DNA from: Pectobacterium sp. A5351 | GTDB lineage: Bacteria > Pseudomonadota > Gammaproteobacteria > Enterobacterales > Enterobacteriaceae | Assembly (NCBI RefSeq): GCF_028335745.1 | Contig: NZ_CP116477.1 | Span: 1,488,001 to 1,552,000 of the forward strand | Length of the DNA: 64,000 nt | Direction: 5' to 3' | Part shown: positions 56,922 through 64,000 of the stretch, piece by piece | How positions within the stretch are numbered: the first letter of the stretch is position 1 | Layout of the letters: each line of letters starts with the position of its first letter | Notes under the pieces: model-generated | What the model saw: the letters and a program-made list of their open reading frames with translations, nothing else | What the model was told of the DNA's origin: nothing | The model's database searches: none | Made by a program: the position numbers and the translations under genes

Positions 56922-58124
56922 ATGAACAATGCATCGGCCGCTGTGCGGCCCAAAACGTACCTGAACGTCTTACTTATCTTAGGCGTTACACACCTGCTTA
57001 ACGATCTGATCCAGTCTCTGATACCTGCCGTGTACCCGATACTGAGAGATAAGTATCAGCTCGATTTTATTCAGATCGGGGTTATCACACTGACATTCCA
57101 GATTGCGGGATCGCTGCTGCAACCTGTTGTTGGCGCAGTCACTGACCGCCGCCCCTTCCCGTACTCAACTGTAATCGGAATGCTTTTCACGTTATCAGGG
57201 CTGATTGGGTTAGCTTTCGCTCCCACTTACCACCTCATTCTGGTATCAGCCGCTAGCATCGGTATTGGTTCTTCAATCTTCCATCCAGAAGCAACACGAA
57301 TGGCGCGCTACGCATCCGGTGGAAGACAGGGGCTTGCTCAAGGGATATTTCAGGTTGGTGGACAGGCTGGCGGCGCGATGGGACCACTTTTTGCCGCATT
57401 GATCATTGTGCAGCGTGGGCAGCAGAGCCTTGCATGGTTCGGCGTTCTGGCGGTCATTGCCGTTGGATTGATGATCTGGACCGCCAGACGGCACGACGTT
57501 ATTAAGACCAGCTTCATCGAATCGGCACAGGTTAAGAGCAAAAGCGGCCATAAGGTGAAAACCTACCCGAAGGCGATGGTGACTACAGGCCTGATCGTTC
57601 TGACTTTGCTGATGTTCTCTAAAAATGCCTACGTTGAGAGTTTCCGCTCTTTCTACACTTTTTACCTTATTGATCACTTTGGCGCTTCAGTCCGAACGTC
57701 ACAGTTCATGCTTTTCCTGTTCCTGCTCTCATCTGCAGCAGGTGCTTTGCTGGGCGGTATTCTGGGAGATCGGATCGGGCGTTATAAAATTATCTGGATT
57801 TCAATACTTGGCCCTCTGCCACTGACGCTGATTCTGCCTTATGCAGATTTCCAGTGGACGGCTGTCCTGACCGTCGCCATCAACCTGATCATGGCAAGTG
57901 CGTTTGCTTCCATCCTGATTTATGCGATGGAGCTTGCACCGAACCGTATTGGCCTGGTGGGCGGACTCTTTTATGGGTTGAACTTTGGTCTGGCTGGAAT
58001 AGCGGCAGCGGTGCTGGGTGCGCTGGCTGATAAGACGGGGATCGAGAACGTTTACTGGCTGTGTTCTTTCTTGCCACTGGCGGGATTGCTTACGTGGTTC
58101 CTGCCAAAAATTGAAAATAGTTAG
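56922..58124 (+). CDS. fsr: fosmidomycin-resistance-type MFS exporter
   Basis: The 400-residue 12-span MFS protein resembles Fsr: LILGVTHLLNDLIQSLIPAV then YPILRDKYQLDFIQIG, GSLLQPVVGAVTDRRPFPYS, GIGSSIFHPEATRMARYASG and GQAGGAMGPLFAALI are characteristic. In E. coli overproduction of Fsr gives resistance to fosmidomycin; the natural substrate is not known. AGG stands upstream of the ATG. It is intact next to the dead EamA gene. Confidence 0.82.
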   Translation: MNNASAAVRPKTYLNVLLILGVTHLLNDLIQSLIPAVYPILRDKYQLDFIQIGVITLTFQIAGSLLQPVVGAVTDRRPFPYSTVIGMLFTLSGLIGLAFAPTYHLILVSAASIGIGSSIFHPEATRMARYASGGRQGLAQGIFQVGGQAGGAMGPLFAALIIVQRGQQSLAWFGVLAVIAVGLMIWTARRHDVIKTSFIESAQVKSKSGHKVKTYPKAMVTTGLIVLTLLMFSKNAYVESFRSFYTFYLIDHFGASVRTSQFMLFLFLLSSAAGALLGGILGDRIGRYKIIWISILGPLPLTLILPYADFQWTAVLTVAINLIMASAFASILIYAMELAPNRIGLVGGLFYGLNFGLAGIAAAVLGALADKTGIENVYWLCSFLPLAGLLTWFLPKIENS

Positions 58125-59186: not shown

Positions 59187-59471
59187 TCACCATTTTGCGG
59201 GTAAATGCCTGTGTGTATGAAAAACGCGCAAAATCTGAATCATATTATCTTTCACGCGGTAGGGGATGATGTAGGGATAGTGCGTTAACACCAGCTCACG
59301 CGTTCCCGGAACACGGCCAGGTCTTCCGATTGCTGGCTGTTGCGGTAGTAATTCCGTTAACTGTTGGACTTCATTTACAAACTGGTTGGCAGCCTGTGGA
59401 TCGTCTTGAGCGATATAAAGGTACTCGGCTTCCAAATTGGCCGCGGCTTTACGCAGCCATTTAATTTCCAT
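59187..59471 (-). CDS. RelE/ParE-family toxin
   Basis: The 94-residue protein is a ParE/RelE-fold toxin: EIKWLRKAAANLEAEYLYIA, PAIGRPGRVPGTRELVLTHY then PYIIPYRV and the end ILRVFHTHRHLPAKW. The GR-G-x-xGTRE pattern and HTHRxxP end are typical of ParE-like members. Its start overlaps the antitoxin gene by 11 bp, the usual antitoxin-first operon order. The target (gyrase or ribosome) cannot be told. Confidence 0.88.
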   Translation of the reverse strand: MEIKWLRKAAANLEAEYLYIAQDDPQAANQFVNEVQQLTELLPQQPAIGRPGRVPGTRELVLTHYPYIIPYRVKDNMIQILRVFHTHRHLPAKW

Positions 59472-59706
59472 GTCTTGCCGTACTTAATTTTTTAAAGAGA
59501 TTGTTCATCTCATCTGATGAGACAAAATCACCATCATCGGCTTCTTTAATGGCTTGCTCGATATCTGCTATCTGCCAGGCTTCCCGCGCAAGATAGTCTT
59601 CAATAGCTTGTCCGGCCAGAAAAGAGCGGGTACGTCCCGTAGCTTTAGCCAACGCATCAAGTTGCGCGGTTGTTTCATCATTTAAGCGAACGGACATGAC
59701 ACCCAT
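59461..59706 (-). CDS. ribbon-helix-helix antitoxin
   Basis: The 81-residue protein starts MGVMSVRLNDETTAQLDALA then KATGRTRSFLAGQAIEDYL, the ribbon-helix-helix of CopG/StbD-type antitoxins, and has an acidic C-terminal part (IKEADDGDFVSSDEMNNLFK) that should wrap the toxin. AGGTGG lies 6 bp before the ATG; a GTG four codons upstream is the other choice. Two TACATTGTA repeats upstream are the likely operator for autorepression. Confidence 0.87.
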   Translation of the reverse strand: MGVMSVRLNDETTAQLDALAKATGRTRSFLAGQAIEDYLAREAWQIADIEQAIKEADDGDFVSSDEMNNLFKKLSTARHGN

Positions 59707-59718
59707 ACGCCACCTCAC

Positions 59719-60531: not shown

Positions 60532-60582
60532 TGAACTGACCCCCAAATGTTGGATACCCAACAGAGTAAGGTGCAGTTTTTT

Positions 60583-61116
60583 ATGGCAAAACCTAAGTAT
60601 TCCCTCGAACTCAGACTCGCAGTCGTAAACCACGTTCTCTCGGGCAGCGACGGAACCCATCGCACTGCCGAAATTTTTGCCGTCGAAAGAACCTCAGTTC
60701 GACGCTGGGTCAGAGCCTTCCAGCTTCACGGTATTGATGGCATTACCTGGAAAAACGATATCCACTCTGCAGAGTTCAGACTGGTGGTTGTCCATGCTGT
60801 GCTCAACGACGCGCTTTCAATGCGTGAAGCTGCAGCCCGCTTTAATATTTCCAATGAAACGGTTGTTCGTCGCTGGGCCTCCGTGTACAACGATGCCGGA
60901 CCGGAAGCACTCCGGAATATGAAACGCGGCAGGCCTCGGGAAATGACCAGGAAAACCCCCCCTCTTTCTACTGATACCGATATGGAACAGCTGTCTTCTG
61001 AAGAACTCCGGGCTGAGCTTCGCTATCTGCGGGCGGAGAATGCTTATTTAAAAAAGCTGAAAGCCTTGGTTCAAAGCGAAAAAAACGGCAAAAAGCCCAA
61101 ATCATCAGCGAACTAA
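60583..61116 (+). CDS. IS3-family transposase OrfA
   Basis: The 177-residue protein has two HTH units: SLELRLAVVNHVLSGSDGTH with TAEIFAVERTSVRRWVRAFQ, and SAEFRLVVVHAVLNDALSMR with EAAARFNISNETVVRRWASV. A leucine-rich coiled coil follows (LRAELRYLRAENAYLKKLKA). Near its end, A-AAA-AAC at 61080-61086 is a -1 slippery heptamer, in the right place to make the OrfAB fusion transposase. The start MAKPKYSLELR was chosen to fit the family. Confidence 0.9.
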   Translation: MAKPKYSLELRLAVVNHVLSGSDGTHRTAEIFAVERTSVRRWVRAFQLHGIDGITWKNDIHSAEFRLVVVHAVLNDALSMREAAARFNISNETVVRRWASVYNDAGPEALRNMKRGRPREMTRKTPPLSTDTDMEQLSSEELRAELRYLRAENAYLKKLKALVQSEKNGKKPKSSAN

Positions 61117-61157
61117 GGCAAGAGCATGCCCTTAATGACCTCCTGCGTGCCGCAGGC

Positions 61158-61943
61158 ATGTCCCGGAGCACGTGGTATCACAACATCAGAGCGATGAAGC
61201 GAACGGATAAACACGCCGGACTCAAGGCCAGAATCAGTGACATATACCGCCATCACAAAGGACGTTACGGCTATCGCCGAATCACACTCTCTCTGAGAAA
61301 AGAGGGAATAGCAGTGAATCACAAGACAGTACAACGCCTGATGGCAGAACTGTCACTCCGCTCTGTTAGTAGAGTGAAGAAATATCACTCGTGGAAGGGA
61401 GAAACAGGTAAAGCAGCACCTAACATCCTTAAGAGAAACTTCTGGGCGTCAAAGCCTAATGAAAAATGGGTAACGGATGTTACCGAGTTTTCATTGCAGG
61501 GTAAGAAGCTGTATCTGTCGCCAGTTCTCGATCTGTTTAACAGGGAAATCATCTCCTACAGTCTGTCCGAAAGGCCGGTCATGGATATGGTGAATGCGAT
61601 GCTGAGAGAGGCTTTATCAGTGCTCAGTCCGGAAGACACTCCGCTGCTGCACTCGGCTCAGGGATGGCAATACCGAATGGCAGGTTATCAGGAAAAGTTA
61701 AAAGCAAAGGGCGTCGTGCAAAGCATGTCGCGCAAAGGAAACTGCCTGGATAATGCGGTGATAGAGAACTTCTTTGGTACGCTGAAAACGGAGTGCTTTT
61801 ACCCTGGCCAGTTCGGCAGCATTGAAGAGTTGAAGCAGGCGATAGAGGAATATATCGATTACTACAATAATGAGCGGATAAGCCTGAAGTTGAAAGGTCT
61901 GAGCCCGGTTGAATACCGGACCCAGGCCTTAAAAGCCGCGTAA
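61158..61943 (+). CDS. IS3-family transposase OrfB with catalytic Asp changed to Ala
   Basis: The frame lies -1 to orfA and would be made as the OrfAB fusion; open sequence upstream of the ATG (IISELRQEHALNDLLRAAGM) supports this. The integrase core has the first Asp in WVTDVTEFSL and the Glu in NAVIENFFGTLK, both intact. Where the family has HSDQGWQY, this copy reads HSAQGWQY, so the second catalytic Asp is lost. The end is SLKLKGLSPVEYRTQ. The transposase should be inactive. Confidence 0.9.
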   Translation: MSRSTWYHNIRAMKRTDKHAGLKARISDIYRHHKGRYGYRRITLSLRKEGIAVNHKTVQRLMAELSLRSVSRVKKYHSWKGETGKAAPNILKRNFWASKPNEKWVTDVTEFSLQGKKLYLSPVLDLFNREIISYSLSERPVMDMVNAMLREALSVLSPEDTPLLHSAQGWQYRMAGYQEKLKAKGVVQSMSRKGNCLDNAVIENFFGTLKTECFYPGQFGSIEELKQAIEEYIDYYNNERISLKLKGLSPVEYRTQALKAA

Positions 61944-62281: not shown

Positions 62282-62557
62282 ATGTTTATAAAAACTATAG
62301 AAAAAACAAACCATTCTGAGTGGGTGGTGAGAAATAGTTTGTATTGGATGTCTGCTTACACAAGATGGCAACTGGGGGCAGATGACAACGACTGGATCGT
62401 CTCTTTTGAGTCTTTTGACGACACCATCAAGTTTGAATTTGAACGCCTCCTGAATGATTACAAGCTCCGCGAAGCTCATCAAAGCCATACCGGACATATC
62501 AGGGCTTCAATCATCTCCACGGTGCTGAGAAGCATTGATGCGAGGCTGACCGAATGA
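62282..62557 (+). CDS. hxsD: His-Xaa-Ser system protein HxsD
   Basis: The 91-residue protein (MFIKTIEKTNHSEWVVRNSL, then YWMSAYTRWQL, ESFDDTIKFEFERLLNDYKL, REAHQS) fits the small HxsD component of His-Xaa-Ser systems: an N-terminal part with the W/Y-rich segment and a C-terminal helix. Its role is unknown; it is thought to assist maturation of the HxsA peptide. AGGACAG precedes the ATG. Its stop overlaps the hxsB start as ATGA, so the two are coupled. Confidence 0.75.
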   Translation: MFIKTIEKTNHSEWVVRNSLYWMSAYTRWQLGADDNDWIVSFESFDDTIKFEFERLLNDYKLREAHQSHTGHIRASIISTVLRSIDARLTE

Positions 62558-63948
62558 AGCCAATGCCATTTAACTTTGACAGGTTGAATGATGGCAGGGT
62601 ATTCATCAGCAATCTGGCTGGTTTCCATCACTTCATCACTAACGATGAATTAGAAAGCCTTTCCTGCAATAAATGGTCGCCGGAGTTCCGGTCTAGCGAC
62701 ATTCTGGAAAGTAAGCTTTTCATTGCCCACGATGCTTCGGAAGACCTCGCTTCTGCTTCACTCAGTTCAGGATTTGCTAAACGGCTGATGAGTGATCTGG
62801 CTGTCAGACCGATTTTCATGATTGTGCCAACATTGCGGTGCGATCATACCTGCAAGTATTGTCAGGTCAGCCGGGCGGCAATCGGGGCGGAAGGTTACGA
62901 TCTTGATCCGCTTCTCATCCCTGATATCGTTCAGACCATTAAAAAACTGTCTTCGCCTCCCTATAAGATAGAAGTGCAGGGCGGGGAGCCTTTACTCCGG
63001 TTTGATCTGATCCAGAGAATATACGCTGAGTGTGAAAGAACTCTGGGTCAACAATGCTTTGAAATGGTGATTGCCACGACGCTCTCACTGCTTGAACCGT
63101 CCATGATGGACTGGGTTAAAGAGCGCAATATCACATTCTCCGTTTCTCTGGACGGTGGTGAGGATATCCACAATAAAAACCGTCTCCTTGCCGAAGGTAA
63201 ATCCTATTCAAAAGCCGTTGCGGGGATGCTGGCGGTTCGGGAGCAGCTTGGTGCAGGTCGCGTGGCGACAGTCACGACCGTTACCAAGGCATTGATCCAA
63301 CATCCGGGGTCAATTATTGATGCCCATCTGGGATTAAGCTTGACGGATATCTTTGTCAGACCCGTTAGCCCCTACGGATTTGCCCATAAAGAAAGTTTCA
63401 CTTTCTCGATGCAGGAATATTTCGACTTTTACGCCGCGTTGATTGACGAAATTCTGTGGCATAACCAGAAAGGCACTGCGGTGGTTGAACACTCAGCCGC
63501 GATACATTTAAAGCGGATTTTCAATCCTGGTTTTAGTGGCTATGCCGATCTGAAATCCCCCAGTGGCGTCGTATTGAACTGTATTCTCTTTAACTATGAT
63601 GGCCGTGTTTATGGCAGCGACGAAAGCAGAATGCTTCAGAAGGTGAATGCAGATGCAGATTTTAGTGCCGGGGCTGTTTCAGAATTGTCTTTTTCTCAAA
63701 GTCCCTACTATCAGTCAGTCCTGAATTCATCGTTCAATTTTGCTCTACCGGGTTGTGATACCTGTGCTTACCAGCCATTTTGCGGTGCTGACCCTTGCCA
63801 GAATATCAGTGTTCAGGGAGAGCCGGTAGGCGACAGAAGCCGCTCCATCTTCTGCCAATATCATAAGGGAATGTTCCGGTTCCTGATGAATGCCATTGCT
63901 CAGGATGGACCTACCGCAACGATGCTGAAAAGGTGGGCTTATGTCTGA
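62554..63948 (+). CDS. hxsB: His-Xaa-Ser system radical SAM maturase HxsB
   Basis: HxsB is a radical SAM/SPASM enzyme predicted to modify the His-Xaa-Ser repeat peptide. In the 464 residues the [4Fe-4S]/SAM motif C96-x3-C100-x2-C103 lies in LRCDHTCKYCQVSR, followed by the Gly-rich strand EVQGGEPLLRFD. The SPASM-like C-terminus has GCDTCAYQPFCGADPCQN and IFCQYHKGMF, ligands for auxiliary clusters. The N-terminal 80 residues (NFDRLNDGRVFISNLAGFHH) are typical of HxsB. It overlaps both hxsD and hxsC. This is the central enzyme of the cluster. Confidence 0.88.
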   Translation: MKPMPFNFDRLNDGRVFISNLAGFHHFITNDELESLSCNKWSPEFRSSDILESKLFIAHDASEDLASASLSSGFAKRLMSDLAVRPIFMIVPTLRCDHTCKYCQVSRAAIGAEGYDLDPLLIPDIVQTIKKLSSPPYKIEVQGGEPLLRFDLIQRIYAECERTLGQQCFEMVIATTLSLLEPSMMDWVKERNITFSVSLDGGEDIHNKNRLLAEGKSYSKAVAGMLAVREQLGAGRVATVTTVTKALIQHPGSIIDAHLGLSLTDIFVRPVSPYGFAHKESFTFSMQEYFDFYAALIDEILWHNQKGTAVVEHSAAIHLKRIFNPGFSGYADLKSPSGVVLNCILFNYDGRVYGSDESRMLQKVNADADFSAGAVSELSFSQSPYYQSVLNSSFNFALPGCDTCAYQPFCGADPCQNISVQGEPVGDRSRSIFCQYHKGMFRFLMNAIAQDGPTATMLKRWAYV

Positions 63949-64000
63949 GGTGCTAAGAAACGATATCTTCCGTTTTACGGTAAAAAACACGGTTGAAATG
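63941..64000 (+). CDS. hxsC: His-Xaa-Ser system radical SAM protein HxsC, partial
   Basis: Only the first 20 codons are in view (MSEVLRNDIFRFTVKNTVEM). Assignment rests on position: hxsC follows hxsB in Hxs operons, with the start overlapping the hxsB stop by 8 bp, indicating translational coupling. HxsC is a second radical SAM enzyme. No catalytic motif can be seen because the window ends. Confidence 0.6.
   Translation, partial: MSEVLRNDIFRFTVKNTVEM

Follow-up and report, generated by a model that had tools for sequence, protein, structure and literature searches.

The right edge of a 64,000-nucleotide stretch of the genome of Pectobacterium sp. A5351 (the window; G000:C2:1488001-1552000) falls inside an operon of the His-Xaa-Ser (Hxs) system, a peptide-modification system with two radical S-adenosylmethionine (radical-SAM) enzymes, and we are virtually certain that its genes hxsDBCA, followed into the host genome, form a complete and intact Hxs set. 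The gene hxsD (62282..62557, plus strand, ATG start), coding for 91 amino acids (aa), is followed on the same strand by hxsB (62554..63948), coding for a radical-SAM maturase of 464 aa, and by the start of hxsC (63941..64000), a second radical-SAM maturase gene, whose product has 370 aa and whose full extent (G000:C2:1551941-1553053) reaches past the right window edge to 65053 on the window scale. Directly downstream lies hxsA (G000:C2:1553050-1553706; 65050-65706, window scale), coding for 218 aa with six tandem His-x-Ser (HxS) units. The overlaps of 4 bases between hxsD and hxsB and 8 bases between hxsB and hxsC, reported in a preliminary description made from the window alone, are borne out by these coordinates, and 4 bases are likewise shared by hxsC and hxsA; the second radical-SAM gene and the HxS-repeat gene, which that description expected to the right of the window, are both in place. 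All four proteins lie above the curated NCBIfam cut-offs: HxsD scores 94.8 bits with TIGR03976 (cut-off 50), HxsB 550.5 bits with TIGR03978 (cut-off 370), HxsC 401.5 bits with TIGR03977 (cut-off 267.9), and HxsA 166.1 bits with TIGR03979 (cut-off 121.65). As these cut-offs are surpassed 1.4- to 1.9-fold, and as 20,000 shuffles of HxsA yielded at most three tandem HxS units (in two shuffles) against the six observed, we do not regard the assignment as a chance result. No rival SPASM family scores better for HxsB, the second-best NCBIfam family being PapB with 74.9 bits, and a search of the genome with TIGR03979 recovered a single hxsA, that of the operon.

The operon is a further copy of an already catalogued system, one among many, which was reportedly described by Haft and Basu in 2011 and has borne its name since about that time. 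It shares with its Enterobacterales relatives the gene order DBCA and the HxS tract; it differs from the extended form of the system in that its genome lacks the MauG-like TIGR03981 protein, and from the short-substrate form with the order ADBC in its DBCA order and long substrate. In the open-licence literature we found neither a characterised Hxs product or role nor any connection of His-Xaa-Ser with anti-phage activity, in agreement with the preliminary description, which held the chemistry and role to be unresolved. One article mentions HxsB and HxsC as earlier annotated with a putative His-Xaa-Ser substrate (PMC9062424), and another lists hxsA-D among the genes found in a study of Pseudomonas aeruginosa (PMC8446631). 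The value of the present analysis lies in testable chemistry, rather than in this single copy.

The central evidence on this chemistry comes from the substrate. In 108 of 112 hxsB loci, three or more tandem HxS units are present in the product of a neighbouring gene, and two of the four loci without one (L026, L035, L102 and L116) are short fetched stretches. Among 79 named loci, obtained from 80 of 588 confirmed stretches, HxsD, HxsC, and HxsA were each detected in 77. Across 58 distinct arrays, counted with one foreign triplet tolerated inside a run, His occupies the first place and Ser the third in 356/356 units, while the second place admits 15 kinds of residue, chiefly Ser, Arg, Ala, Tyr, and Gly. 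Because the selection of these arrays had itself demanded three tandem units, the count was repeated on a second sample chosen without this rule, namely the 120 listed of 964 homologues of the Pectobacterium HxsA (the 7992 candidates with the most shared words were scored). Arrays of at least two units are present in 116 of these; the remaining four lack the tract and look truncated. Of the units from distinct arrays, 4/238 deviate, each at one place, with Leu or Gln replacing His, or Pro or Arg replacing Ser; in none of the four is Ser exchanged for Thr, Cys, or Asn. Both Ser codon boxes (AGY and TCN) occur inside a single array in 62 of 102 distinct DNA arrays; therefore, it is the protein that is conserved, and the pattern is not one of repeat slippage. 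The second residue ahead of the array is Ala in 93/111 proteins in one count and in 114/116 proteins of the second sample, and perhaps marks a recognition or cleavage site.

The second line of evidence concerns the maturase. The radical-SAM cysteines C96, C100, and C103 of HxsB are invariant in 71/71 aligned sequences, and the C-terminal region carries Aux II-type cysteines (for auxiliary cluster II) at C401, C404, C410, and C434, the first three of which are again kept in 71/71. No Aux I-type set is present in this alignment: the position matching C276 of the Ser/Cys-oxidising sulfatase maturase anSMEcpe is Ser in 66/71 and Thr in 5/71, and C255 and C261 of that enzyme have no conserved counterpart. 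Thus, the preliminary description was right as to both the radical-SAM motif and a C-terminal cysteine group, but its term 'SPASM-like' needs qualifying, since HxsB has the Aux II set alone and not the Aux I and Aux II ligands of a full SPASM domain. Asp356, likewise invariant in 71/71, aligns with Asp277 of anSMEcpe.

The HxsB model (predicted local distance difference test, pLDDT, 91.8) is structurally like CteB, anSMEcpe, and ChlB, and suggests an enzyme of the CteB/sulfatase-maturase type. Its residues 1-80 are modelled as three strands followed by helices and align with the N-terminal part of CteB, which we take to be a RiPP recognition element (RRE), the winged-helix domain that binds the leader of ribosomally synthesized and post-translationally modified peptides (RiPPs). 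HxsB departs from CteB, a ranthipeptide/sactipeptide maturase (5why, 5wgg), in having Asp where CteB has His, after a 'Y-x-C/S' stretch, and the HxS tract here is without the cysteine needed for a thioether. From anSMEcpe it differs in the extra N-terminal domain and in the absence of conserved Aux I ligands (C255, C261, C276, and C330). The AlphaFold2 model of HxsD (pLDDT 93.9; strand-helix-strand-strand-helix) predicts a small half-ferredoxin-like fold, for which no PDB match was obtained at E 0.001 or better; no RRE is among the fold matches listed, a listing that does not exclude one.

Given this kinship, HxsB might simply oxidise the third residue of every unit, turning Ser into formylglycine or a dehydro residue, with His kept for metal binding or for a separate change by HxsC. 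We consider such a pathway improbable: the His is as strict as the Ser at a fixed spacing, which Ser oxidation alone would not need, and the Aux I ligands of anSMEcpe are not conserved in HxsB. We tentatively favour, at somewhat short of even chances, a cross-link between His and Ser, because both residues are equally strict and a constant distance apart, the place between them varies freely, and one repeat spans just as many residues as an i to i+2 ring. Each residue has a precedent among the triceptide maturases, radical-SAM enzymes that likewise act on aromatic-x-residue motifs: PMC11002830 has HaaB and YhhB joining His C2 to the Cbeta of Ala or Arg, and MscB joining Phe to the Cbeta of Ser, in all cases from i to i+2. 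A title cited in PMC12636437 calls ChlB a 'multiple cyclophane synthase'. The Hxs system departs from the triceptide maturases in using two radical-SAM enzymes together with HxsD.

We envisage that HxsA is made with a signal-like leader, the HxS tract, and a C-terminal domain resembling peptidoglycan-binding domains. The leader would be held by the CteB-like N-terminal domain of HxsB, probably with HxsD as docking adaptor, whereupon HxsB and HxsC would modify the tract by means of a 5'-deoxyadenosyl radical. Most likely, a bond would form between each His and the beta carbon of the Ser at i+2, through radical attack at the Ser Cbeta, and the tract would become a gapless series of three-residue rings. 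None of the four genes codes for an exporter or protease; the modified HxsA would leave by the general secretion route and be held at the cell wall, where the stiff imidazole ladder could act as a metal- or redox-active device. Export and wall association of HxsA seem to us somewhat probable, a metal or redox role rather doubtful, and the proposition that the operon as a whole works through a cross-linked, exported HxsA plausible, if slightly less likely than its negation.

Several observations weigh against this scheme. The N-terminus of HxsA was judged signal-like by eye only, and its match to PG_binding_1 reaches 20.3 bits, under the Pfam cut-off of 23, although many of the listed homologues have PF01471. 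The named loci comprise 39 with a long HxsA downstream, 29 with a short one upstream, seven long upstream, two short downstream, and two with none found; since the short proteins stop right behind the tract, binding to the wall cannot be general. For the named cyclophane-forming families among the best 25 of 44 families, which include triceptide families, HxsB stays under every cut-off (YhhB 45.6/445, AmcB 31.3/425, GrrM/OscB 30.3/310 bits), and its best non-self family, PapB, is a thioether-type maturase. An oxidative cross-link by HxsB also sits uneasily with its lack of Aux I, which PMC5715301 proposes as the electron acceptor in anSMEcpe. The ladder itself is inferred from sequence patterns and its product is a predicted one. 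The invariant His and Ser around a free middle, an anSME-type Asp without Aux I, and two architectures of HxsA lead to concrete predictions: the ring ladder would lower the mass by about 2 Da per unit (-2 Da), and Asp356 should be essential.

Certain loci bring a further enzyme into play. In 6/79 named loci, within the fetched flanks and with genes called as greedy open reading frames rather than by a trained gene finder, the gene at +2 encodes a MauG-like protein that carries the CxxCH motif twice (two Marinobacter, Vibrio tetraodonis, a Pseudoalteromonas, a Thiohalobacter metagenome-assembled genome, and Pseudomonas sivasensis), with a small TIGR03982 protein at +1 in five of the six. Of these, L061 and L124 were tested with TIGR03981, scoring 618.5 and 543.7 bits (cut-off 340), and L061 with TIGR03982, scoring 185 bits. 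A claim of a newly discovered partner was dropped, as both families stand in NCBIfam under names that tie them to Hxs: TIGR03981 as 'His-Xaa-Ser system-associated MauG-like protein' and TIGR03982 as a His-Xaa-Ser system protein. Such linkages would fit a scenario in which a periplasmic di-haem enzyme acts on or together with HxsA: the radical-SAM enzymes would prepare the tract, the MauG-like protein would complete it or use it as a redox cofactor, and the Pectobacterium copy would be a reduced form without the MauG step. In the HxsB tree L061, L062, L063, and L066 fall outside the Enterobacterales group, which is consistent with this proposal, but the placement of L066, L069, and L124, all on long branches, is unsure. 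In light of the small number of such loci and the absence of any TIGR03981 match in the Pectobacterium genome, we deem this scenario quite unlikely.

The setting of the operon supports its horizontal acquisition, near an integrase and a tRNA-Asn gene. Within the genus, hxsB is above cut-off in 4/25 genomes, a comparison that the preliminary description had recommended, and the other three bear, on the hxsA side, DNA matching the integrase region at 90-97.5% identity; of the four stretches fetched, three contain a tRNA-Asn according to ARAGORN. These facts support the earlier view that the operon was probably transferred. Downstream of hxsA lie an IS4-type insertion sequence (IS) transposase in two reading frames (L002:9250-10438; 66250-67438, window scale), the integrase (L002:10489-11766, minus strand), tRNA-Asn (L002:11946-12021), and then mtfA. 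In two of the other genomes (G004 and G015), 23 bases of the tRNA end recur exactly beyond hxs, about 28 and 34 kb away from the copy at the tRNA, as would be expected for an integrated island. For the island studied here, the 37- and 17-base patterns sought as a left-end repeat are absent from the window. An exact 21-base core has three copies in the genome, one at the tRNA-Asn beside mtfA and two to the right of it, and none left of hxs; it is possible that deletion or IS-driven rearrangement affected the left end.

On the other side of the operon, the IS element and toxin-antitoxin pair previously noticed beside it were both recovered: an IS3-type element (60547-61943) upstream of hxsD, and an ordinary pair of a ParE-type toxin (PF05016, 69.8 bits) with a RelB-like/ribbon-helix-helix antitoxin (59187-59718, minus strand). 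IS-like fragments near 58.3-59.2 kb were recognised from translations only. A transporter gene (56922-58124) is matched in only 2/25 genus genomes, its own and one with a 161-base piece elsewhere, so accessory DNA probably extends that far. The AT-rich character attributed to this DNA is likewise evident, with a GC content of 24% in the 182 bases just upstream of hxsD and 44-48% in the hxs genes against 50.7% over the window's first 56 kb. In another genus genome, L135:6792-9331, between integrase and hxsA and about 0.5-3 kb from the latter, encodes an extra radical-SAM protein, a small protein, and a HETLH-motif protein; these, known from translations only, perhaps form a second peptide-modification cluster.

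Further afield, hxsB is above cut-off in 13/394 genomes sampled across the order and 14/398 across the phylum. It is found in 385 plasmid records (tblastn, E 1e-40), 320 of them from Klebsiella and 305 typed as conjugative, in five phage records (tblastn, 1e-5), two of which cover at least 80% of the query, and in 151/5426 complete E. coli genomes (blastn), where it is chromosomal every time. The seven of these 151 contexts that were opened comprise two P2-like prophages, two ssrA islands, two recombinase- or IS-bounded elements, and one tRNA-Thr island. In the prophages (L127:11207-15117 and L129:8488-12398; E. coli H22 and 01_3327) hxsDBCA sits between ogr and D, the latter encoding a VgrG-like tail protein, next to ihfA. 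The HxsB tree, despite long branches and false joins in other parts, shows, at forks marked as supported, mixed families inside the Enterobacterales branch, where Serratia sp. Ag1 joins the E. coli prophage copy and Enterobacter cancerogenus groups with Erwiniaceae; it also places Pantoea sp. Cy-639 with Pseudomonas viridiflava. This distribution marks the Enterobacterales operon as mobile cargo of islands, P2-like prophages, and plasmids, sometimes beside antiphage systems, and makes a role testable in laboratory E. coli. A metal-resistance plasmid neighbourhood was considered and set aside: in the one region viewed, the sole metal-related gene listed is a chromate transporter more than 12 kb upstream. 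A Leptospira phage record (KF114877; L128:5627-9590) shows the order hxsA-D-B-C and a short substrate; the protein encoded next is annotated as 'mobilome CxxCx(11)CxxC protein'.

The genes behind hxsA vary among the 15 named loci that fall in the Enterobacterales branch (L047-L057, L059, L060, L064, and L065). They are Gabija-like genes in L048, Qat-like genes in L049, and a PDC-S19 protein in L064; one gene further are MkoC (L055) and PDC-S06 (L057). The Gabija and Qat genes were assigned by Pfam/NCBIfam matches, QatA with 370.8 bits being under its cut-off of 600. These five loci of the 15 have a defence-model neighbour within four genes, which, together with the mobile carriers, would accord with hxsDBCA being an antiphage or exclusion module at the periplasm or wall, kept by mobile elements against rivals. 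However, mobile islands gather defence genes anyway, and the control set consisted of just 39 proteins (38 window reading frames and hxsD). The scan covered 125 of 153 candidate neighbours; of the 150 listed, seven from the resistance plasmid L126, two from prophage L127, and 16 short, near-duplicate, or transposase rows were left out by hand. Only the mad3 model matched in the control (2/39), and this model, which also hits 3/125 neighbours, is taken as unspecific. When ten neighbours were scanned singly against PADLOC at 1e-15, four matched (L055, L057, L064, and L132) and six matched nothing. Among the Hxs proteins, PADLOC-DB 2.0.0 gave only weak, partial radical-SAM (viperin) hits for HxsB and HxsC (14.9-28.9 bits) and none for HxsD or HxsA. 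PMC9122126 locates the P2 defence hotspot between gpA and gpQ, and we reject placing the prophage-borne operon there, its site being ogr-D. All in all, a function in such conflicts appears improbable to us. Only marginally less unlikely in its entirety is the conjunction of this ecology with the His-Ser ladder, in which the whole (His-x-Ser)n tract of an exported, wall-attached protein would become an uninterrupted poly-cyclophane 'imidazole rod', through an unusual cluster set of HxsB with radical-SAM and Aux II but without Aux I, borne in Enterobacterales as prophage and plasmid cargo in conflicts between mobile elements.

Two other sets of neighbours deserve mention. A 'sporadically distributed' TIGR04141/DUF6119 protein of about 430-550 aa is encoded behind hxsA in 5/79 named loci (L050, L052-L055) and in four of the seven opened E. 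coli loci (L130-L133), one copy being annotated as frameshifted; L053 and L133 were those tested with the hidden Markov model. It does not follow hxsA in Pectobacterium sp. A5351, and we reject it as an obligatory partner in favour of an optional one. A cluster of methyltransferase-like proteins of about 186 aa, of which that in L106, the sole one tested, matched PF13649 with 34.9 bits, directly adjoins the operon in six named loci, L075, L076, L099, L106, L108, and L115.
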